NCBI GenBank assembly: GCA_022710935.1
Contig: JAKLFY010000054.1
Coordinates: forward strand, 1-43,357
Direction: 5' to 3'
DNA length: 43,357 nucleotides
Origin: Verrucomicrobiota bacterium
GTDB lineage: Bacteria > Verrucomicrobiota > Verrucomicrobiia > Limisphaerales > J093
The notes beneath the pieces are model-generated. The model did no database searches and was not told the origin of the DNA. It worked only from the letters and a program-made list of their open reading frames with translations. Positions 7,274-33,258 of the stretch are shown here, one piece after another. The translations under genes and the position numbers were made by a program. Every line of letters begins with the position of its first letter. Positions within the stretch are counted from its first letter, which is position 1.

Positions 7274-7623
7274 TGGTGGAGGCGGCGGGAGTTGAACCCG
7301 CGTCCCTGACAGAAACCCCAGCCGCGACTACATGCTTAGCCGGAGGTAAAGTCTCGGCGAACGGTTACGCTCCGGCGCGACCCGCCCACCCAGCCCGCTG
7401 TAAAAGTTTCGGTCAGCCGCGCAGCCGGCGCCACGGCCAACCTACCCTGCTGTTGCGTTCGTCCACCCTAGCAGGTGTCAAGCGGCGAACGTCGCGGACT
7501 TAGGCCGCGAGGGCCAATTCACTATTGGCTGTTTTGTTTTGACCCGATGATTAACGAGGCCAACGGATCGTCCTCGGCATGCCGCCTCTGGCGCGTCTTC
7601 CAGGTCGAAACCAGTACGCCCCC
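7274..7623 (-). ncRNA. ssrA: Transfer-messenger RNA (tmRNA)
   Basis: The 5' end reads GGGGGCGTACTGGTTTCGAC and the 3' end ACGCGGGTTCAACTCCCGCC followed by GCCTCCACCA. The acceptor arms GGGGGCG and CGCCTCC pair (one G-U), the T-arm GCGGGTTCAACTCCCGC is perfect, and CCA is encoded. An in-frame tag ending ANSELALAA then TAA is read from 7529 to 7500. A resume codon GCC at 7529-7527 is likely because A-rich sequence precedes it, but an earlier in-frame codon cannot be excluded. The length of about 350 nt is usual. It rescues stalled ribosomes with SmpB and tags products for proteolysis. Confidence 0.95.
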
Positions 7624-9393: not shown

Positions 9394-9470
9394 TGGCGCA
9401 CCCATCAGGAGTTGAACCTGAAACCTTCTGATCCGTAGTCAGATGCTCTATCCAATTGAGCTATGGGTGC
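9394..9470 (-). tRNA. tRNA-Arg (anticodon ACG)
   Basis: The minus strand folds as a full cloverleaf: acceptor GCACCCA with TGGGTGC, D-arm AGCTCAATTGGATAGAGC, anticodon stem TCTGA/TCAGA with loop CTACGGA (ACG at 34-36), and T-arm CAGGTTCAACTCCTG. The discriminator is G and the CCA end is encoded. ACG is normally edited to ICG by TadA to read CGU, CGC and CGA. Confidence 0.96.
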
Positions 9471-16167: not shown

Positions 16168-18117
16168 ATGAACTTGAATCTGTTTTGTGTCCGGGTGGTG
16201 GGTTGCGTGAGCCTGGCTTTCGCGGCCTTTGCCGAGTCGGTTGTCTTGCGCTACGAGAGCGCCCCGTCGCCGAACGGTCCCTGGACGCCGGTTGATTCGG
16301 CGGTCATGCATCATCTGCCCGACGGTGCGGCGTCGGTCCACAGCGCGTCGACTCAGGCGTACTTCCGGCTGCGGATCGAGTCTGACGTTGAGGGTCAAGC
16401 CTTGCAGGTGTTGCCGCTGGCCGAGGTTCCCGCGGCAACTCTCGAAGTGGCGCGTCGTCATGTCGAGGGTCTCTTGCGTCCGGCCGATTCCGCGGACGAC
16501 GATGATGTTGACGGATGGGCGGACGCTGAGTTTGGTCCTTTTGCCATTCTGTTATCCCGCGAAGGCGCCCCCTCCGGAGCGCCGGGGTACCTGGAACTCA
16601 AACTCGTCTCCGCGACTTCTGGCGAGCGCCCCCAAGAAGGGTATCTGCGGCAACTGTCGAACGAGCCGACCTCTGTGGATCGGGGGTACATCATTGTCTC
16701 TCTGGATCGGAGCGACCTGCCGGTGCTCGAGTACAACACCGAAGGGCCGACGCCCGTCGAGCGGTTGCTGCGGCGGTGCGGCGGCAAGACTCCCGCGCGG
16801 ATTGTGCGGTTCGGGCCGACGTTTTGGGCGGCCGAGGACGCTCGGGGGGGCCTGATCGCGAATCTGGGCACGGAGCCGTTCAAGATCCCGCACGATTTCG
16901 CGTCTGTGATGGAGGCGCGATTTGCGGGCGAGATCGACACCGCACGAGAGATCCTGGAGCTGCCGCCCGAGTTGAAGCTTCAACTATCGAGTTACGCCAG
17001 TTACGGCGAGCTCAAGGAGGACTACGAGTCCAGTCCGGTGCACAGGCTTCTGCGCGAGCGGCGGGCTGCCCATGCCGGATTGCAGTGGGACATCGAGGCG
17101 GGGAAGGTGCCGCCGATTCTCGAGTTACGGGTGGGCGAGACCAACCTGTTTCTCGGAGGGCGCGTGTTGGAGGATGTGGTGGTGCACTGGGAGGGCTTGC
17201 GGGAGTTGGCTGACGTGAGGCTGTTGCGGAGCGGATTCGAGGCGGTGGGGCGCCAGGCCGGCTCGGCTCCCTTGACGGTGCGGACCTCGCAGGGCCTCGA
17301 GGCTTACGTTTTGCGCGTGAGCGCTCGGGGCGCAGGTTTGGCGTCCGTCGAGCTCGCCTCGGGCGAGCCTTTCTGGCGGACGAAGACCTGGTGGGCTGGC
17401 GGGTGGGGCGACCAGATGCATTACTATCAGCTCAAGGATTCGGACTGGTGCGAGTTGGTCGGGTGCGGGCCCACGGCGGTGGCGATGCTGCTTGGTTACT
17501 GGGATCGCCGGGGTGTACCCAGCGCGTTTTACACGGGGATTGTCGGGTCGGCTGAATTCGATTCACTACGGCTCAGCGATGCCCCTCAGGAGATCGACAC
17601 AGCGAACCGGAAGGCGGTTTTGCGCAAGGTGTATCATCAGCTTCACGACTTGTGCGATGTGATCTGCCCGCCGTTCACGGATTCCGGGGCGACGTGGCCG
17701 GGCGACTTGATCGAGGGATTCGCCGGCTACCTCCACCCTGTGTCGAGTTCGAGCGGAATGGCCTCCCTGCTCTATGGAAAGGGCAACCGATTGGTGAATT
17801 ACTCGTGCTCCTGGGCGTGGGACGGGTGGGGCGACGACTGGCAGGTGTCGGGCGTGCGTGTGGCCAACGGCATCAAGGATGGCCGTCCGGGGATTATTGG
17901 CCTGGGCTGGCTCTGGCACTATGGCGTGGCGTATGGGTATCGTCGCAAGGAGTACGTCGTGCCCTATCCCGGTGGCGAGACTGTGATCCAGGTCAAGCGC
18001 TACTTCCGTGTCAACGAAGGCTGGTCCGATTTCAAGCCTTCGTGGTACAACGCGCACGACGTCTTCCTCGGCCTGACTGCGAACATGACGCAAGCGCGGA
18101 CTCCGCAGATGCCGTAG
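16168..18117 (+). CDS. Secreted C39-like (papain-fold) cysteine peptidase
   Basis: A 649-residue protein with a short signal peptide (VGCVSLAFAAFA). Residues about 25-72 are a 'GPW' fibronectin-like module (YESAPSPNGPWTPV, FRLRI), usually C-terminal in this group but N-terminal here. The catalytic-type region is near the end: WCELVGCGPTAVAMLLGYWD with candidate nucleophile Cys433, LGWLWHYGVAYGY with candidate His584, and RYFRVNEGW with candidate Asn616. This Cys-His-Asn order and the GCGPTA context match C39-like peptidases. The 350-residue middle is not recognised and might act as a propeptide. A substrate is unknown. The TAG stop leads into CCGGATCTCTCA, a REP-like arm. Confidence 0.75.
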   Translation: MNLNLFCVRVVGCVSLAFAAFAESVVLRYESAPSPNGPWTPVDSAVMHHLPDGAASVHSASTQAYFRLRIESDVEGQALQVLPLAEVPAATLEVARRHVEGLLRPADSADDDDVDGWADAEFGPFAILLSREGAPSGAPGYLELKLVSATSGERPQEGYLRQLSNEPTSVDRGYIIVSLDRSDLPVLEYNTEGPTPVERLLRRCGGKTPARIVRFGPTFWAAEDARGGLIANLGTEPFKIPHDFASVMEARFAGEIDTAREILELPPELKLQLSSYASYGELKEDYESSPVHRLLRERRAAHAGLQWDIEAGKVPPILELRVGETNLFLGGRVLEDVVVHWEGLRELADVRLLRSGFEAVGRQAGSAPLTVRTSQGLEAYVLRVSARGAGLASVELASGEPFWRTKTWWAGGWGDQMHYYQLKDSDWCELVGCGPTAVAMLLGYWDRRGVPSAFYTGIVGSAEFDSLRLSDAPQEIDTANRKAVLRKVYHQLHDLCDVICPPFTDSGATWPGDLIEGFAGYLHPVSSSSGMASLLYGKGNRLVNYSCSWAWDGWGDDWQVSGVRVANGIKDGRPGIIGLGWLWHYGVAYGYRRKEYVVPYPGGETVIQVKRYFRVNEGWSDFKPSWYNAHDVFLGLTANMTQARTPQMP

Positions 18118-18210
18118 CCGGATCTCTCATCAACGAATGGATGCATCGGAAATCCGGGGCGGATGGCAGCCTCTTTCGCTGACACCGGCTTCGCGTTGAG
18201 CAAGAGTGGT

Positions 18211-21934: not shown

Positions 21935-22246
21935 GGTGTTAGGGTTGACTTTGCATTCATGACAAGAGGCTGGCGAGCTTCGCACTTCCGATTGCCTGGT
22001 CCACGAGCCGTCGCGGCGGAATAACAGGCCGCTCGATCGAGTGGCAGAGCCGTTGTCGTGGAGTCGAGGTGAGACTGATCACCGCGGGACGCGAATGCAA
22101 TACAAAACGACATATAAAATGAGCGGCGAACAACCAGCCGTTCATGGCAGGTCCCGCATCACGCCCGAAGATGGCGGAAGAGGGCCTGCGTTTGTCTTGC
22201 TGCTTTCCGCTTGAGTGGCACGGGGCGCGGGAGCAGGTTCGACGTC
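21935..22246. other. Divergent promoter region of the LamG protein and the ABC exporter
   Basis: This gap separates two divergent genes. An AT-rich patch around 22099-22120 includes TATAAAAT (22113-22120), a possible -10 on the plus strand, but no matching -35 is evident. A TTG at 22211 could extend the ABC ATPase by 12 residues. Confidence 0.3.
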
Positions 22247-23179
22247 GTGCCACTTCTCGAAGTCAACCATCTGGTCAAAGCCTTCGCGACCGTGCGCGCG
22301 GTGGATGACGTGAGCTTCCGGCTCGAACCGGGCGAGATCTACGGGCTGCTCGGCCCGAATGGGGCGGGCAAGACCACGACCCTTTCGATGATCTGCGGCC
22401 TGCTCAAGCCGGACGCAGGGGACGTGACCGTGGACGGATCGAGCTTCTGGAACAATCCGCGGCGCGCGCAGCGGATCATGGGCGTGGTGCCTCAGGAGGT
22501 GGCGCTGTACGAGGAACTGACCGGACGCGAGAACCTCGAGTTCTGGGGTCGGATGGCCGGACTCGAGTCCGCCACGGCAAAGGCCCGCGCGGGCGAGCTC
22601 CTCGAGGCCCTCTCGCTCGCCGATCGCGCCAGGGACACCGTGAAGAAGTACTCGGGCGGCATGAAACGCCGCATCAACCTCGGTGTCGCGCTCATGCACC
22701 GTCCGCGGCTGCTGCTGCTGGATGAACCGACGGTGGGCATCGATCCCCAGGCGCGGGCGAACATTCTCGAATTCATCCGCCGGTTATGTGGCGAGGGAAC
22801 GGGGATTCTGTACACGACGCATTACCTCGAAGAAGCGGAGCAGTTGTGCGCGCGGATCGGCATCATCGACCACGGGCGGCTGCTCGCCGAGGGCACGCTG
22901 GGGCAGCTTCAGGAGCGGCTCGGGGGCGATCGCCTGTTTGTCCTCGAAGGCGATCTCGCCGGCGCGCAGGCCGAGGCGTGGCCGGGCTTTCCCGAGCGTT
23001 TCCGCAAGCTGCAGCAGACCGATCGCCAGCTCATCGTGGCCGCGCTCGGCACTCGCGACCCGGCCGAGTGCCTTCGCGACCTCCTGGCCTTTCCCGTCCA
23101 TGCGGAGAACGTCACCGTCAAGCGGCCCAGCCTGAACGACGTGTTTCTTCAACTCACCGGGCGCGACCTTCGCGAATGA
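22247..23179 (+). CDS. ABC exporter ATP-binding protein
   Basis: The protein has 310 residues from GTG 22247 (VPLLEVNHLVKAFATVRAVD); a TTG at 22211 would add 12. Walker A GLLGPNGAGKTT, Q-loop VVPQEVALY, signature KYSGGMKRR, Walker B LLLLDEPTVGID and switch YTTHYLEEAEQL are all intact. It belongs to the drug/ABC-2 exporter class (CcmA-like). The C-terminal about 90 residues (ending RPSLNDVFLQLTGRDLRE) are the usual extension of this class. Its TGA overlaps the ATG of the first permease (ATGA), and that gene overlaps the second in the same way, so the three form a coupled operon. Confidence 0.95.
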   Translation: MPLLEVNHLVKAFATVRAVDDVSFRLEPGEIYGLLGPNGAGKTTTLSMICGLLKPDAGDVTVDGSSFWNNPRRAQRIMGVVPQEVALYEELTGRENLEFWGRMAGLESATAKARAGELLEALSLADRARDTVKKYSGGMKRRINLGVALMHRPRLLLLDEPTVGIDPQARANILEFIRRLCGEGTGILYTTHYLEEAEQLCARIGIIDHGRLLAEGTLGQLQERLGGDRLFVLEGDLAGAQAEAWPGFPERFRKLQQTDRQLIVAALGTRDPAECLRDLLAFPVHAENVTVKRPSLNDVFLQLTGRDLRE

Positions 23180-24483
23180 AGCCTGGATTTCAGATTACTC
23201 CTGCAAGGGGTGGGAAATCCGGGCTGGGTGTGCTCCTGGCCAAGGATCTGCGGCGGGCGCGTCGCAATCCGCTCCCGTTTCTGATTCACCTGACGGTCCC
23301 GCTGGTGATCACAGCGCTCCTGGGCCTGGTGTTTGGCGGCGGCGGGGGCGGCACGTCCAGCGGCCCGGGCAAGATCAAATTCGCCATCGTGGACGAGGAT
23401 GATTCGGTGGTGACCCAGTTCCTGCGCGGCGCCGTGAACCAGGGGCGGGCGGCCGAGCGGCTGCAGCCGGTGTTTCTCGATCGAACGAACGGGCTTGCGC
23501 AGGTCACGGGCAATGAACTGAGCGCGGTGATCATCATTCCCGCCGGGTTCACCCGCAATTATCTCACGGCGTCGGCGCCCGTGACGATCGAGTTGGTCAA
23601 GAACCCGGCGCAGTCCATCTACCCGGCGGTGATCGAGGAACTGCTGGGCGCGCTCGAGACCGGGTTGAACGCCCTGTCACGCAACTTTGCCGATGAACTG
23701 ACGCTCTGGAGCCGGGTGTTTGACAGGCCGGGCGGACCGGACTTTCGGGTCGTGGCGGACCAGATCGTGAAGACCGGCGAGAAGATCGAAGCCATCGGGG
23801 GTTTCGTGAATCCGCCCCGCGTCAGCTACGAGAAGGAAACGCGCGACGAGGAGACCTCGGCGAAGGGGCCCGGATTCAACCTGTTCGCGTTCCTGTTGCC
23901 CGGGCTGGCGGGCATGTTCCTCCTCTTTCTCGCGGAGGTGTCGGTGCGGGACGTGTACCGGGAGATTCGGCTGCGGACATTCGAGCGGTTCTGCACGCTG
24001 CCCCAGAGCATCCGGTTGTTTGTCGGCGGCAAGGTGGCGGTGGCGGTCGTGATCCTGCTCCTGGGCGCGGCCATCATGCTCGGCGGCGGCGGTCTGATCC
24101 TGCGCATCGATTGGCGCGCGCCGGCAGCCATGGCGCTGGTGGGGGCCAGCTACGCGCTATTCGCCGTGGGCTTCATGATGTTGTTGGCGTCCATCGCGCA
24201 GACGGAGGGCCGTGCCGACGCCTTGGGCAACGTCGTCGCGATGGCGCTTGGCCTGGTTGGCGGGTGTGCGTTTCCCGCCGATGCCCTGCCGACTTTCATG
24301 CGCGAACATCTGACCCCGTTGATGCCGCCCAACTGGTTCGTCGAGGCCATCCGCGGGCTGCAGTCCGGGGCGGACGCGGCGTGGCCATGGGCGGCGGTCA
24401 AGCTGGCGGTTTTCGGGGTGGCGCTCGCCATCATTGCGGCGTGGGTGCTCGAGCGAAAGCTCCGGACAGGAGTGCGCGCATGA
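23176..24483 (+). CDS. ABC-2 exporter permease, first subunit
   Basis: A 435-residue permease. The start at ATG 23176 overlaps the ATPase stop. An N-terminal span (FLIHLTVPLVITALLGLVFG) is followed by a large extracytoplasmic domain of about 190 residues (IKFAIVDEDDSVVTQFLRGA; LSAVIIIPAGFTRNYL), then five or six spans with the ABC-2 loop REIRLRTFERFCTLPQSI and the end FPADALPTFMREHLTPLMPP-NWF. This is the YhgE/DrrB-like ABC2_membrane_3 layout. Codons 2-16 are made by a REP-like palindrome, so the original N terminus may have been different. The substrate is unknown. Confidence 0.92.
   Translation: MKPGFQITPARGGKSGLGVLLAKDLRRARRNPLPFLIHLTVPLVITALLGLVFGGGGGGTSSGPGKIKFAIVDEDDSVVTQFLRGAVNQGRAAERLQPVFLDRTNGLAQVTGNELSAVIIIPAGFTRNYLTASAPVTIELVKNPAQSIYPAVIEELLGALETGLNALSRNFADELTLWSRVFDRPGGPDFRVVADQIVKTGEKIEAIGGFVNPPRVSYEKETRDEETSAKGPGFNLFAFLLPGLAGMFLLFLAEVSVRDVYREIRLRTFERFCTLPQSIRLFVGGKVAVAVVILLLGAAIMLGGGGLILRIDWRAPAAMALVGASYALFAVGFMMLLASIAQTEGRADALGNVVAMALGLVGGCAFPADALPTFMREHLTPLMPPNWFVEAIRGLQSGADAAWPWAAVKLAVFGVALAIIAAWVLERKLRTGVRA
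23180..23225. repeat. REP-like palindrome inside a coding start
   Basis: AGCCTGGATTTC (23180-23191) and GAAATCCGGGCT (23214-23225) are inverted copies with one mismatch and a 22-bp spacer. They encode permease residues 2 to about 17 in frame. The arms match the intergenic REP family. Confidence 0.7.
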
Positions 24484-25610
24484 AGCAGAGCCTTGCCATC
24501 GGGCACAACGACCTGCGCCTCTTTGTGCGCAATCCGTTTTCGCTGGTCTGGCTGTTCGTGGTTCCCTTGGCGTTTGTCTATTTCATGGGCCTCGCAAACC
24601 GGGGTCCGGGCGATCCGGCCAACCCGCGTCCGGCAGTGCTCGTCGAGAATCTCGACACGAACTTCCTCGCCCGCGCCTTCCTGGCGGAACTGGGATTGCA
24701 GGGACTGGCGGTGCTGGACCCCACGAACCGCGACCAGGCGCGACGCGGGATCCGGATCCCCGCGGACTTCACGGAGCGGGTGCGGCGGGGGGAGCAGGCG
24801 AAGGTGCGGTTCTTCACGCTCAAGGGGTCCGGGCCCGATCTCTCCGAGTTGGTCGAGGTGCGGTTGGTGCGCGCCCTCATCGCCCTGAACTCGCATCTGC
24901 TTGAACACGCCGGAAACCACAGGGGCGCACTGCCCGACGAGCCCGCCCTCGAGGCGCTTCGCGCCCGGCCGAATCCCGTCCGGCTCGAGGCGCGGTTCGC
25001 GGGCAGGCGTCCGATCCCGGCGGGCTTTGCTTTGTCCGTGCCTGGGGTGCTGGTGATGTACCTGATGTTAAACCTCCTGGTGTTTGGCGGCGCCGCGTTG
25101 GCGAGCGAACGGCGGTCGGGTCTCATCCGCCGGTTCATGGTCCAACCGCTCGGTCGGAGCGCGCTGATCATGGGGAAGGTGTATGGGTTGGTTCTGCTCG
25201 GCGCGGCGCAGGTCGCGGTCTTCCTCGTGTTGGGCCAGTTTCTCTTCCGGGTCAATCTCGGCTCGGAACTGCCCGGGATTGCGCTGACGCTGCTGATCTA
25301 CTCCTGGCTCTGTGCGTCGCTTGGGGTGTTGATCGGATCGGTGATTGCGGCGGAGGAGCGGATTGTCGGGCTGTGCCTCCTGGTGAGCCTGGTGATGGCC
25401 GCGCTCGGCGGGTGTTGGTGGCCGCTCGAAGTCGTGCCCGAAACGATCCAGACGCTTGCCCATCTGTTCCCGACCGCATGGGCGCTGGATGCGCTCCATC
25501 AGATGATCACGTTCGGCGGCGGATTCGGCGCGGCGAAAGGCGCGGTGGGCGTGCTCGTGCTGTACGGGCTGGCCGCGAATCTGGCGGCCATCAAGTGGTT
25601 CCGCGCGTGA
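24480..25610 (+). CDS. ABC-2 exporter permease, second subunit
   Basis: A 376-residue permease. Start ATG 24480 overlaps the preceding stop (ATGA). The layout mirrors the first permease: one N-terminal span (LVWLFVVPLAFVYFMGLA), an extracytoplasmic domain of about 160 residues, then about five spans with ASERRSGLIRRFMVQPLGRS as the ABC-2 loop and GGCWWPLEVVPETIQTLAHL-FPTAWALDAL near the end, the conserved ABC-2 C-terminal signature. With its partner and the ATPase it should form an ABC heterodimeric exporter. The stop lies 7 bp before a 142-bp inverted-repeat element. Confidence 0.93.
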   Translation: MKQSLAIGHNDLRLFVRNPFSLVWLFVVPLAFVYFMGLANRGPGDPANPRPAVLVENLDTNFLARAFLAELGLQGLAVLDPTNRDQARRGIRIPADFTERVRRGEQAKVRFFTLKGSGPDLSELVEVRLVRALIALNSHLLEHAGNHRGALPDEPALEALRARPNPVRLEARFAGRRPIPAGFALSVPGVLVMYLMLNLLVFGGAALASERRSGLIRRFMVQPLGRSALIMGKVYGLVLLGAAQVAVFLVLGQFLFRVNLGSELPGIALTLLIYSWLCASLGVLIGSVIAAEERIVGLCLLVSLVMAALGGCWWPLEVVPETIQTLAHLFPTAWALDALHQMITFGGGFGAAKGAVGVLVLYGLAANLAAIKWFRA

Positions 25611-27956: not shown

Positions 27957-29354
27957 TCATTTCCGGGTTTCTCTCCACCATTCCTTGAAGCTCTGTTTCG
28001 CGATGCGCGGCACGTCGCGCGTCCGGGTCCAGCAATACGCCGGATCGATTGGTGTACCCCTGATCAGGCCATGGAACCGCTGTCCGAAGCGCCCGCCCTT
28101 GGTCACGAGCATCCACGGGATCCGGCCATTGGCGACGGGGGCGAAGAGTTTGAAGGCGATCTTCTGCCACCAGCTCGGTTTGCGGCGCGAGGCGTTGCGG
28201 CGGTTTTGGAGGAGGTGGTGGGCCAGGTCGATCTTGACCGGGCAGGCTTCGGTGCACGCTCCGCAGAGGGAGGAGGAGTAGGAGAGGTGTTTCCAGTCCT
28301 GGAGGCCGCGCAGGTTGGGTGTGATCACGCCGCCGATCGGGCCGGGGTACGTGGTGGCGTAGGTGTGGCCGCCCACGTGGCGGTAGATTGGGCAGACGTT
28401 CAGGCAGGATCCGCAGCGGATGCAGTGGAGCGCGTCTCTCTGCTCGGCATTGGCGAGGAGGGCGGTGCGGTTGTTGTCGAGCAACACCACATGGAACTCC
28501 TCGGGGCCGTCGGTCTCGCCGGGCTGGCGCGGGCCGCCGTAGAGGGTGTTGTAGCCGCTGATGAGCTGACCGGCGCCCACCGTCGCAAGCATCGGCAGCA
28601 AGAGGGCCAGATCGTCCAACCGCGGGACGATCTTCTCGATGCCGAGCAGCGTGATCATGGTTTTGGGCAGCGCGGCCGTGAGGCGCGCGTTCCCCTCGTT
28701 TTCCGTGACCGAAATCATGCCGGTCTCCGCGACGGCGAAATTGGCGCCGGTGAGGCCGATATCGGCGTGGATGTACTTCTGTCGGAGGACGCGGCGGGCG
28801 ACCAGGGTGAGGGCTTCCGGGTTGTCGGAGGGCGCGTCGTGGAGCTTGTCCTTGAAGGTGCGCTGGATTTCGCCGCGGGTGAGGTGCATCGCGGGGAAGA
28901 CGATGTGGTAGGGCGGTTCGTCGCGGAGTTGGACGATGAACTCGCCCAGGTCGGACTCGACCACTTCGAAGCCGGCCTGTTCGAGGGCGCGGTTGAGGTG
29001 GATTTCCTCCGCGGTCATGGCCTTCGACTTCACGATCGAGCGTGCGCTCTTGCTTCGGGCGATGCCGACGATGATGTCGCATGCCTGGCGGGCGGTTGTG
29101 GCCCAGTGCACCTTCGTTCCCCGCGCTTCGAGTCCGCGCACGAACTGATCGAGGTGCCGGTCCAGGCGGTTGATGGCCTCCCACTTGATTTCGGCGGCGA
29201 GCTGGCGCGCCCCGTCATAGTCCTGGAAGAGCGCCTTCTTCTCGTCGCGTTTGACTTCGTAATTGCCGAGGGCGGTCTGGATCAGCGACCGGTGACGCAG
29301 GTCGGCTGTCAGCCGGACGGCATCCCGTTTGAATTGGGAGGCGGAGGCGCTCAT
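27957..29354 (-). CDS. lutB: Lactate utilisation iron-sulfur protein B
   Basis: The protein has 465 residues from ATG 29354, which overlaps the lutA stop (ATGA). The N-terminal two thirds are a LUD domain (KSKAMTAEEIHLNRALEQAG, GANFAVAETGMISVTENEGN). The C-terminal ferredoxin-like part has two CxxCxxCxxxCP clusters, CIRCGSCLNVCP and CGACTEACP, for two [4Fe-4S] centres. LutB passes electrons in L-lactate oxidation. The length fits the family (about 470). The longer open frame upstream is the antiframe of lutA and is not used. Confidence 0.95.
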   Translation of the reverse strand: MSASASQFKRDAVRLTADLRHRSLIQTALGNYEVKRDEKKALFQDYDGARQLAAEIKWEAINRLDRHLDQFVRGLEARGTKVHWATTARQACDIIVGIARSKSARSIVKSKAMTAEEIHLNRALEQAGFEVVESDLGEFIVQLRDEPPYHIVFPAMHLTRGEIQRTFKDKLHDAPSDNPEALTLVARRVLRQKYIHADIGLTGANFAVAETGMISVTENEGNARLTAALPKTMITLLGIEKIVPRLDDLALLLPMLATVGAGQLISGYNTLYGGPRQPGETDGPEEFHVVLLDNNRTALLANAEQRDALHCIRCGSCLNVCPIYRHVGGHTYATTYPGPIGGVITPNLRGLQDWKHLSYSSSLCGACTEACPVKIDLAHHLLQNRRNASRRKPSWWQKIAFKLFAPVANGRIPWMLVTKGGRFGQRFHGLIRGTPIDPAYCWTRTRDVPRIAKQSFKEWWRETRK

Positions 29355-30064
29355 GCGGGTGCGAGGATCTCGGCGAGGTGGATGGTCTTGAGCGGCTGGC
29401 GGCGGCGATCGATCAGCCCCTGGATGTGCATCAGGCAGCTCGAATCGCTCGACACGATATACTCGGCCCCGGTCTCGAGGGCGAGTTCGCACTTCACCTC
29501 GCCCATGGCCGTCGAGATCATCGGGAACTTGGCCGAGAAGGTGCCGCCGAAGCCGCAGCAGACGGTTTGTTTCATCTCGACCAGTTCGAGTCCGTGGACT
29601 CGGGCCATCAGTTGGCGCGGCGCGGCGTGGATGTGCATTTCGCGGAGGCTGTGGCAGCCGTCGTGGTAGGTGACCTTGTGGGGGAACCGGGCTCCGAGAT
29701 CGGTCACGCCCAGCTTGTCCACCAGAAACTGGGAGAACTCGAAGCACTTGGCCGAGACCTGCCTGGCCAGCCCTTCCTGCGGTGTGCCGGCGAACAGGTC
29801 CGGGTAGAACACCTTGATCATCGCGCCGCACGAGCCGCTGGCGATGACCACGACCTCGGCATCCTTCAGTTGCTGGAGCACCTTCACGGCCGTGGCGCGG
29901 CTTTCGTCCCAGTAGCCGGTGTTGAACGCGGGCTGGCCGCAGCATGCGGGACTCTCGGGGCATTCGACGCGGTGCCCGAGCTTCTCGAGTATGCGCACCA
30001 TCGCGATTCCGACCTGCGGGTAAATCAGATCGATGAAGCACGGAATGTAGAGCGTGATGGTCAT
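29351..30064 (-). CDS. lutA: Lactate utilisation protein A, CCG-domain iron-sulfur subunit
   Basis: The protein has 237 residues from ATG 30064 (MTITLYIPCFIDLIYPQVGI), preferred to the earlier start because the family begins here. It has two CCG (cysteine-rich) domains: PACCGQPAFNTGY with SGSCGAMIK, and HDGCHSLRE with VCCGFGGTFS, which bind an unusual iron-sulfur cluster. It is the first gene of lutA-lutB-lutC. A REP-like palindrome lies between its start and the preceding gene's stop, so its promoter must be short or lie within 30065-30193. No lutR or lactate permease gene is nearby. Confidence 0.94.
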   Translation of the reverse strand: MTITLYIPCFIDLIYPQVGIAMVRILEKLGHRVECPESPACCGQPAFNTGYWDESRATAVKVLQQLKDAEVVVIASGSCGAMIKVFYPDLFAGTPQEGLARQVSAKCFEFSQFLVDKLGVTDLGARFPHKVTYHDGCHSLREMHIHAAPRQLMARVHGLELVEMKQTVCCGFGGTFSAKFPMISTAMGEVKCELALETGAEYIVSSDSSCLMHIQGLIDRRRQPLKTIHLAEILAPA

Positions 30065-30124
30065 GGGCCGACGATCGGTTGTTTGGATCGCTTCATTGGA
30101 ATCGGTCTGGAGGCGCGCCTCGCC

Positions 30125-30195
30125 AGCCCGCATTTCAGGTGAAATGTGACGGTGACCGGTCAGATGACATCAAAAGTTGGTGAGAAATGCGGGCT
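30125..30195. repeat. REP-like palindrome overlapping a stop codon, upstream of lutA
   Basis: AGCCCGCATTTC (30125-30136) and GAAATGCGGGCT (30184-30195) are exact inverted copies with a 47-bp spacer. The right arm overlaps the TAG stop of the minus-strand gene ending at 30194. It may separate transcription of that gene from lutA. Confidence 0.8.
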
Positions 30196-32155
30196 AGGGA
30201 TTCAGTTTGGGCGGACGAGGGCTGAAGGTCTTGAGCGTGAACCCGTCCTTCGAGATCTGCCCGGCGTAGACCGTCAGGTGAAAGTACTTGGCGATCTTCT
30301 CGAAAGGCGGGAGCAGCGAGAAATCGAACCATTCCTTCAACGCCTTGTCCGGCTCGCCCGACTTTGGCCCGACCGGGCTCATGGCCAGGGCCTGCGATAT
30401 CAGGTCGCCGTTGTTGCGGAGGATTTCGGTCAGGATCCGGAGGTTCTCGACGTCGTCCTGGTAGCCGAAGAGGCCTGTGGCCATACCGCCCACCTTCCCG
30501 CCCGCCTCGCTCAGGCCGGGCACCGCGGCGAGCGGTTTGGGTTTGGTCTCTCCGCTGCGCAGGTATTCCTCGAGCAACGCCGCGTCCGTCGAGACGGCGA
30601 GGTACCCTCCGCTGGCGGTCATATGCACGCTCTCTTCGGCCGCCGCGCCCCCCTCCTCGGTCGGCAGGGTGGGCATTGGAAGGGAATGGATCTTGCGACC
30701 GAGGAACTCGCGCTCCTTGAAGCTCGCACTGCTCAGCGGCGCCGCGAGCATGGACAGGACCGACTTGAGGCCCTGGAGGAGCTGATCGGGATTGGGCGAG
30801 GAGATCAGGGTCACCGAGGGCGGGCTGATGAGGTCGTCGAGCGTCGTTCCTCGCGGCGTCTTCTGATAGGACACGAAATCGTCGCCGAGGTTCGCGATCA
30901 GGTTCTTTCTGAGGTCAAAGGCGGGCGACTGTTCCTTGATCATCGCCTCGACCTGCATGACAACGAGACCGAGCATGCCTGGCGCAATCTCGTTGGCGAT
31001 GGCTTCCACCGACGCCCAGATGCGCTGGCCGTCCGCGCGCCACCGGCTGAAATTGACGGCCTCAGCCGGGACAAAGGCGGGCGGCGAAGCGTCCTTGGGC
31101 GCGGTGTTCAGGACTGCGAAGAGGCCTTTGCGGGTCTCTTCGGGGACGCCGAGATAGAAATCGAAGAACTCGCCTTCGGCATTTTGGCGCGCATTGAACG
31201 CGAGGGTTCTGAGGCTGCTCAGCCCGAACGCCCCGAGCATCTTGTCCAGGCCGAACGCCATCATCGCGGCCGGATCTCCGTCGGGTGTTCCCTCGCCGGC
31301 GGGGAACATGCGGGCCAGAGTCTCGGCTATGGGGGCGAAGTGAATCCAGCCGTACGACAGGCCGTCCCGCAACATCCCGCGCGCGTCGGCCTCGAACGCC
31401 GGCACTTCCGCCAGTGCGCCTCCGCCTGCGCCCGCCATGCGCGCCAGGACCTGTTCGAGCACCTTGGTGCTGGTGCTCACGAGAAGCGCGGACTCGGCCT
31501 GTCCCACGCTCAACTCGATCGTGGATCCGGCCTGTCCCGAGGGCGACGATGCAGCAGGGGTCGCTCCGTCTTTCGGGGTGTTCGCGCTCCCGGGCCCGGC
31601 GCCCGCCCCGCTGATCGTGCCGAGACCCTCTTCGAGTTGCGCCCGGTCCAGGATGACGGTCGTGAACTCGACGCCGCGAATGGTATCGGTGCGCGTCTTT
31701 CGGCCGGAGTCGGTCAGCTTGCGCTTGACGTCGGCGAGGTTTTTTCTGAGGAGATCGGCCTTGTCCCGGGCGTCCAGCACCAGCAGGAACGCTGGCAGAG
31801 GTTCGCTGGCACCCGTCCAGCCGTTGCGGGTGACAGCGAGGGTGAATTGGCCCTGGAGCAGGTCCGCGTAGTCCGTCAGCTTGGCGCCGAGATCGCGCTC
31901 GATCGGGGCGACGACATCGTTGGTGAGCTTTGCGAGGAACTTGTCGCAAAAGGGGCGCATCGCCGGATCCTTCCACAGCAGCGCGAAGGGGGCCTGCTGC
32001 CGGGCCACGGTGACTTTCGACCAATCGGGCGCGCAGAGCACGGCCAGGGTGTCGCTCGGCAGGAGGCGTTCGGCGGGCGGTATATCCGCCCGCGCCGTGC
32101 AGAGAGCGAGCGGCAGGGTGCAGGCGAAGAGGGCATTCAGAAGCGTTGTTTTCAT
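30194..32155 (-). CDS. Large secreted protein, DUF3352-like
   Basis: The protein has 653 residues from ATG 32155 with a signal peptide (LLNALFACTLPLALCTARA). The mature protein opens with PAERLLPSDTLAVLCAPDWS, a pattern common in DUF3352-type proteins ('LP.DT......pd'), and continues with alternating helices and strands. It includes a Gly/Ala/Pro/Ser-rich linker around residues 200-225 and SPPSVTLISSPNPDQLLQGL. No enzyme motif is seen. It lies 53 bp after the HtrA-like protease on the same strand and may share its transcript. The stop TAG is part of a REP-like arm. The function is unknown; the family name is from memory. Confidence 0.75.
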   Translation of the reverse strand: MKTTLLNALFACTLPLALCTARADIPPAERLLPSDTLAVLCAPDWSKVTVARQQAPFALLWKDPAMRPFCDKFLAKLTNDVVAPIERDLGAKLTDYADLLQGQFTLAVTRNGWTGASEPLPAFLLVLDARDKADLLRKNLADVKRKLTDSGRKTRTDTIRGVEFTTVILDRAQLEEGLGTISGAGAGPGSANTPKDGATPAASSPSGQAGSTIELSVGQAESALLVSTSTKVLEQVLARMAGAGGGALAEVPAFEADARGMLRDGLSYGWIHFAPIAETLARMFPAGEGTPDGDPAAMMAFGLDKMLGAFGLSSLRTLAFNARQNAEGEFFDFYLGVPEETRKGLFAVLNTAPKDASPPAFVPAEAVNFSRWRADGQRIWASVEAIANEIAPGMLGLVVMQVEAMIKEQSPAFDLRKNLIANLGDDFVSYQKTPRGTTLDDLISPPSVTLISSPNPDQLLQGLKSVLSMLAAPLSSASFKEREFLGRKIHSLPMPTLPTEEGGAAAEESVHMTASGGYLAVSTDAALLEEYLRSGETKPKPLAAVPGLSEAGGKVGGMATGLFGYQDDVENLRILTEILRNNGDLISQALAMSPVGPKSGEPDKALKEWFDFSLLPPFEKIAKYFHLTVYAGQISKDGFTLKTFSPRPPKLNP

Positions 32156-32208
32156 GTGTTCCTGACTGGGTCTGGGGCTGTGGAGCCGGGTGTGCGGCCG
32201 AGGTGGTG

Positions 32209-33258
32209 TCAAAGCGCGGGCTGCCCGATCGCCTTCTGCAGCCGCCGCGGCGGTTCGAGGTAGCGATAGGCGTTGCTGGGGTTGTCGTTGTCGTAGGCGA
32301 AGGCATCGCGGTTTTCGAGGAAATGGCGCACGCGCTCGACCGGGATGGCAAAGCCGAGCCCTTCGCCGAAGCTGATCTTCATGTTGGTCACGCCGATGAC
32401 TTCGCCGCGCAGATTGAAGAGCGGACCGCCGCTGTTGCCCGGGTTGATTTGGGTGCTGGTTTGGAGCAGGAGTTCCCCCTGCAACTGGCGGGTCTTGGTG
32501 CTCAAGATCCCTTCGGTGACGGTCCGTTCCAGTCCGTGCGGGCTGCCAATGGCAAAGACACGCTCCCCCACCGCGACGGTCTGCGCGCTCCCGAGCACGA
32601 CCGACACGAACCTGGGCGCCCCCGCATCCTCGATCTTCAACAACGCCAGGTCCTGAAACTTGTTCATGGCGACGATCTTGACCTGCTTGTAAGTCTTGCG
32701 TTCGAGCTCGCCATTTCTCTGATGATAAACCTCGATCGAGATCTGCGTCTCACCCTCGATCACGTGGAAATTCGTGATGAGATACCCTTCGTCATTGATG
32801 AAAAAACCCGATCCCAATCCGCTCGGCGCGCGCACCTGCACCACCGCCTCGCCCAGTTCCTTCACCAACTCCCGCACCGACCGGTCCTGCCCCGCCCCGC
32901 TCGATGCCGCAAACAGACCGCCGCGTCCGGCAGCGCCGCCCAATCCCGGCGCCGGCGCGACCGCGGCGTTCCCCGCAGCCGTGGCGGGGGGGACGGTCTC
33001 CGCGGTCTCCGGGCTGGCCGCGGATTCACGCCCCGGCTGGCGCGGGGCATCCCCCGCGCCGGTCCGGGTGATTGTCTCCACGCGTTCGCGCGGCACGATC
33101 AGCACCGTGTAGCCGACGTCGACCACAAGCTGGTCGGGCTTCTCCGCCAGAATTGTCCCGGTGATTGCCGCCTGGTCCTTGAGCTGGATCACATCGGCCA
33201 TCAACGCCCAGGCCAGCCCGAACGCCGCAGCGGCGCAGTACATTGAGCGTCTCAGCAT
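32209..33258 (-). CDS. Exported HtrA/DegP-like serine protease without PDZ domain
   Basis: The protein has 349 residues from ATG 33258 (MLRRSMYCAAAAFGLAWALM, a signal peptide); an in-frame ATG at 33270 adds four residues. The N-terminal 50 mature residues (VIQLKDQAAITGTILAEKPD, VDVGYTVLIVPRERV) form a small beta domain often preceding such proteases. After a Pro/Ala/Gly linker, the S1C trypsin fold has all three catalytic residues: His in ITNFHVIEG, Asp in QDLALLKIED and Ser in NPGNSGGPLF. It ends soon after the protease domain with no PDZ. A periplasmic quality-control role is inferred. A G-rich tract lies in its promoter region. Confidence 0.9.
   Translation of the reverse strand: MLRRSMYCAAAAFGLAWALMADVIQLKDQAAITGTILAEKPDQLVVDVGYTVLIVPRERVETITRTGAGDAPRQPGRESAASPETAETVPPATAAGNAAVAPAPGLGGAAGRGGLFAASSGAGQDRSVRELVKELGEAVVQVRAPSGLGSGFFINDEGYLITNFHVIEGETQISIEVYHQRNGELERKTYKQVKIVAMNKFQDLALLKIEDAGAPRFVSVVLGSAQTVAVGERVFAIGSPHGLERTVTEGILSTKTRQLQGELLLQTSTQINPGNSGGPLFNLRGEVIGVTNMKISFGEGLGFAIPVERVRHFLENRDAFAYDNDNPSNAYRYLEPPRRLQKAIGQPAL

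Follow-up and report, generated by a model that had tools for sequence, protein, structure and literature searches.

The window, that is, the whole 43,357-nt stretch of Verrucomicrobiota DNA that was analysed, contains an ABC transporter operon in which an ATPase gene is followed by the genes of two ABC-2 permeases (Table 1). The true start of the ATPase gene may be GTG 22247 instead of TTG 22211. At the first junction, the ATG of permease 1 (23176-23178) overlaps the TGA stop of the ATPase gene (23177-23179) in the tetranucleotide ATGA, and permease 2 is again joined to the preceding gene by an ATGA overlap. From its ATG, the first permease reads MKPGFQITPARGGKSGLGVLLAKDLRRARR, and its N-terminal peptide across a palindromic repeat is MKPGFQITPARGGKSGLG. 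A tmRNA gene (7274-7623) and a tRNA gene (9397-9470), both on the minus strand, also lie in the window.

Table 1. Features of the operon and palindromes in the window (positions are those of the window)
Feature	Position	Strand	Evidence
ABC transporter ATPase gene	22211..23179	+	ORF; Pfam PF00005, PF13732
ABC-2 permease 1, repeat at codons 2-17	23176..24483	+	Pfam PF12698 5.6e-23; orthologue alignment
ABC-2 permease 2	24480..25610	+	ORF, sequence; Pfam PF12698
Left arm, AGCCTGGATTTC	23180-23191	+	sequence; family alignment
Right arm, GAAATCCGGGCT	23214-23225	+	sequence; family alignment
Putative inserted 42-bp unit, 14 codons, PGFQITPARGGKSG	23182..23223	+	family consensus; orthologue spacing restored on removal
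Second copy of the palindrome family	18115..18160	-	abuts stop codon of ORF 16168-18117; pattern and covariance model
Related 71-bp palindrome, P1-like family, similar arm	30125..30195	+	covariance model

An earlier note on this DNA had described a REP-like palindrome at codons 2 to 17 of the first permease gene, directly after the ATGA overlap. Both arms were found where the note had placed them, and they correspond exactly to the 46-bp unit, AG-[42]-CT, of the repeat family described below. The stem has 12 bp with one G:U pair, and the loop has 22 nt. Fold prediction gave -25.9 kcal/mol for the 46-nt hairpin RNA alone, while its 111-nt context was not unusual when compared with dinucleotide shuffles (z = -1.44). 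Palindromes of such shape gave 31 overlapping hits in the window versus 7-14 in shuffled windows; an ungapped repeat finder reported none, and an Rfam search returned no match at its site. Its shape is by itself near chance level and weak evidence. It is the genome-wide family membership of the palindrome that identifies it as a real element, since shape alone is insufficient.

The family pattern, CCCGGATTTC-N22-GAAATCCGGG, was found at 45 sites at ≤3 mismatches in the 7.5-Mb genome (259 contigs), always with a length of 42 bp, and both 9-base arm cores were exact at 18 sites. The reversed pattern, used as a control in the same genome, gave 0 sites, and one of the 45 sites, C183:46413, resembles a chance match within a gene. 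A covariance model (R1) revealed about 55 loci at ≥28 bits in the same genome; the window copy, which is one of the 44 training sequences, scored 52 bits (E 1.4e-10). The same model gave about 20 loci in G001, a genome of the same genus, and about 10 in the family-level relative G004; in other relatives there were no hits or weak hits only. The loop subtype of the window copy (II, CAGATxACTCCTTCAAGTGGTGAG) recurs in G001. In the aligned flanks, good conservation is confined to the AG before the unit and the CT behind it. Many copies are part of composites of the form P1-P2-P3 or P1-P3, the window copy being a lone P3, and stems are intact in most copies irrespective of location. A codon-score survey suggested that most copies are at gene edges or in intergenic regions.

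The family agrees with the broad sense of a REP, as it is a short palindrome (42-46 bp) with a shared motif and many dispersed copies (45 by pattern, about 55 by model). The term "REP-like" in the earlier note thus stands as a description of a dispersed palindrome family, but not as membership of the GTAG-REP superfamily. The GTAG tetranucleotide was not found at the stem end in the flank columns of the family, which ends in CT and then a weak A/G, A/G. Twelve matches to PF01797 (Y1_Tnp) were found in the genome as candidate RAYT partners; one of them, C101:833, has a family copy about 1.1 kb away, and none was seen in the other fetched flanks, which gives no clear flanking pattern. Because there is no GTAG tag and no clear RAYT neighbour, we call the family REP-like and do not file it as GTAG-REP.

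Palindromes of these families also lie at the ends of genes. In the window, the TAG stop (18115-18117) of ORF 16168-18117 (+) is at the edge of the second copy, like the stop-supplying REP ends that have been reported. For the 71-bp palindrome, about 40 near-relatives exist in the genome. The TAG stop of ORF 30194-32212 (-) comes from the terminal CTAG of this palindrome, and the other arm includes ATG 30131-30133, which is the first in ORF 29351-30133 (-); the true start of that ORF probably lies further in. In five copies from G000 and G001 (L015, L010, L074, L068 and L122), a long coding-like frame stops inside the palindrome, and the repeat seems to supply the 3' ends of these genes.

To compare the permease with its relatives, about 36 orthologous permeases were collected from named MAGs, nearly all of them of Verrucomicrobiota, four being the same records as L017-L020. 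An alignment-based scan of genome contigs gave 43 loci; a contig scan with the single protein as query had found nothing. The earlier note had proposed to check in an alignment of orthologues whether residues 2-17 are absent. Residues 3-16 are indeed missing from all of the approximately 36 orthologues examined, and a search for orthologues that carry the same peptide without the repeat, which would have spoken against the proposal, found none. Among orthologues with placeable starts, the ATG is mostly 7 residues before a KDL motif, and 9 or 10 residues before it in a few. The ATG in the window is at -22 from KDL, and it moves to -8 once exactly the 14 codons of the 42-bp unit are taken out. 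In one orthologue, L019, the ATGA-AGC junction is the same but the unit is missing. The absence of the peptide, together with the restored start spacing, therefore gives good support to an in-frame insertion of 42 bp. The closest orthologue found has 56% identity and the permease gene was not found in G001, and for this reason the exact insertion point is one that we infer.

These findings suggest the following scenario. The ancestral permease would have started approximately with MK-LGVLLAKDL, and a transposition-like process would have placed a 42-bp REP-like palindrome of the dispersed family after codon 2 of the gene, giving the present protein start, MK-PGFQITPARGGKSG-LGVLLAKDL. The gene stayed open because the unit has a length divisible by three and, in this subtype, a frame 0 that contains no stop. 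The added residues precede the first conserved segment and probably form a tolerated, near-neutral extension. We consider it likely that all three parts of this reading hold, namely, insertion in frame, translation from the coupled ATG, and tolerance as a near-neutral extension.

As judged from the sequence, the insert is most likely translated from the ATG that is coupled to the ATPase stop. The permease has no good alternative start codon. The next one, GTG 23230, is at -4 from KDL, which is shorter than in every orthologue with a placed start, and is separated from the ATPase stop by 51 nt; the bases just 5' of it are predicted to be paired in the hairpin stem, whereas AUG 23176 is predicted to be open. 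It has been noted that Rickettsia proteins with an N-terminal RPE-1 are expressed (PMC3733652). The same study cautions that N-terminal REPs are often mis-annotated starts, and many of them were judged extragenic (Di Nocera et al. 2013, PMC3733652). The palindrome at the permease could be intergenic, with the permease starting downstream, at GTG 23230 or at a non-standard CTG (codon 17), and with an open frame that is incidental. This is compatible with the apparent location of most copies in the genome at gene edges and with a frame 0 of the unit that is usually open without protein-level selection, but with a start at GTG 23230 the protein would lack three residues relative to the common orthologue start, and the codon would have the 51-nt distance from the ATPase stop and a predicted hairpin stem directly upstream. 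In addition, the permease orthologue L184, which carries a repeat of its own at the same N-terminus, has no ATG, GTG or TTG after that repeat. We thus regard a downstream start as unlikely.

Translation of the insert does not by itself imply a function. The earlier note had suggested that the repeat was exapted as coding sequence at a translationally coupled start. Exaptation could mean that the hairpin, which begins a single base beyond the ATPase stop, adjusts translational coupling, or that the peptide has a role in the permease. The intact stem, with its predicted stability, is in line with exaptation, and so is the mRNA fold check that the note had proposed: in an in silico comparison, the AUG was unpaired with the unit and paired upon its removal. 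However, this difference comes from a single prediction, so the check speaks for an open AUG and leaves an effect of the hairpin on coupling at that level, and stems are intact in most copies wherever they are located. At the protein level, no constraint was detected. The window copy shows five differences from the closest subtype consensus, of which four alter the amino acid, and among 21 alignable composite elements read in the frame of the permease, synonymous changes were fewer than expected (0.232 versus 0.277), so that there is no synonymous excess among related elements. The claim of a gained function was therefore not borne out, and we rate exaptation as even less probable than a downstream start; the simplest reading is that the extension is near-neutral and tolerated. 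That the palindrome arose by chance in a GC-rich gene is hardly credible, because, although palindromes of this size do arise by chance in the window sequence and shape alone would not decide the matter, the same arms, loop length and related loop sequence are present at 44 other sites against none for the reversed control, and subtype II loops recur in G001.

The type A composites (L005, L059, L063, L002 and others) have one frame that is open for about 59 codons in most copies. We considered a peptide-coding mobile ORF, as the open frame of these composites begins at an ATG and continues across the palindrome (MRARKAKPRPS...PGFRCHLPGGEKSGL), and rejected it because synonymous changes are not enriched; the open frame may follow from the sequence constraints of the palindrome.

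A second gene, which is an independent case, shows the same subtype in the same frame. In a CotH/LTD gene (C1:215787, L147), the repeat is read as MRANPLMALLVVCCALLCVAR-PGSQMTPSSGEKSG-PGAAQPG, and the orthologue in G001, which is 91% identical, is without the repeat and has CCCGGTCTCGGGG at the site, the two genes differing by a net 36 nt in frame. A gain in one species and an imperfect loss in the other cannot be told apart. The permease and the CotH/LTD gene are thus the two genes in which the repeat is in frame inside a real gene and absent from orthologues, as in the palindromic elements of Rickettsia (RPE).

Palindromes were also observed at the permease locus of other genomes. In L184, the in-frame repeat at this N-terminus is another palindrome, of which the L184 genome has about 30 copies. 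L194 also carries a palindrome in frame at the permease, but no further copies of it were found in that genome at ≤3 mismatches; in L191, the intergenic gap at the ATPase/permease junction is widened and contains a palindrome. It is conceivable, though doubtful, that this junction is a recurrent landing place for unrelated palindromes that become translated N-terminal extensions of the permease.

Further copies reach, or may reach, into other coding sequences. A full P1-P2-P3 composite runs in frame into the N-terminus of a pseudopilin (C179:52962, L148) with an N_methyl motif; there is no start codon between the repeat and this motif, and the leader may originate from the repeat. A clear orthologue whose N-terminus could be compared was not found. 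A truncated composite element (C1:210559, L135) extends into the beginning of an apolipoprotein N-acyltransferase gene, whose GTG start may come from the element. At the same gene in the sister species (G001, L228), the repeats are arranged differently; in either species, the CTAG of P1 appears to form the end of the upstream gene. The copy on C205 (L145) has a long open frame, but the true start of its ABC exporter is probably after the repeat, and it was left out of the cases.

In-frame intragenic REPs of the GTAG and CGTC superfamilies, including TAG stops provided by REP ends, were described in 2013, and those of the GTAG type were most numerous in Opitutus terrae, a member of Verrucomicrobiota (PMC3733652). 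For Rickettsia, in-frame palindromic elements were reported from 2000 onwards (Ogata et al. 2000 and 2002, reviewed in PMC10969869). As far as the searched literature shows, the phenomenon of repeats within genes is known though uncommon, and the family and the example are new. As an example, the present locus is clean: the REP-like unit can be demonstrated here along with the family to which it belongs and the lack of it in orthologues. The locus comes from a phylum in which intragenic REPs have been reported and are little studied. Moreover, the permease, the CotH/LTD gene and the L184 orthologue form a small testable set for distinguishing translated N-terminal REPs from mis-annotated starts.

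Like the GTAG and CGTC REPs, the present family consists of short dispersed palindromes, with several families per genome and most copies apparently at gene edges, and some copies are in frame inside genes or supply TAG stops from their ends. Unlike them, it lacks a conserved tag of the GTAG or CGTC type as well as a clear RAYT neighbour, and its 12-bp stem and 22-nt loop are also a difference. With the RPE it shares a palindrome that is in frame in unrelated protein genes and keeps the host gene open, a likeness of behaviour; however, RPE-1 type elements are about 150 bp long and often in gene interiors, whereas the unit described here has 42 bp and its credible coding cases are N-terminal. 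Finally, many copies occur, as in BIMEs, in composites of two or three palindromes, but the modules of these composites are different palindromes, whereas a BIME is built from one repeat in alternating orientation, and the copy at the permease start is a lone P3.
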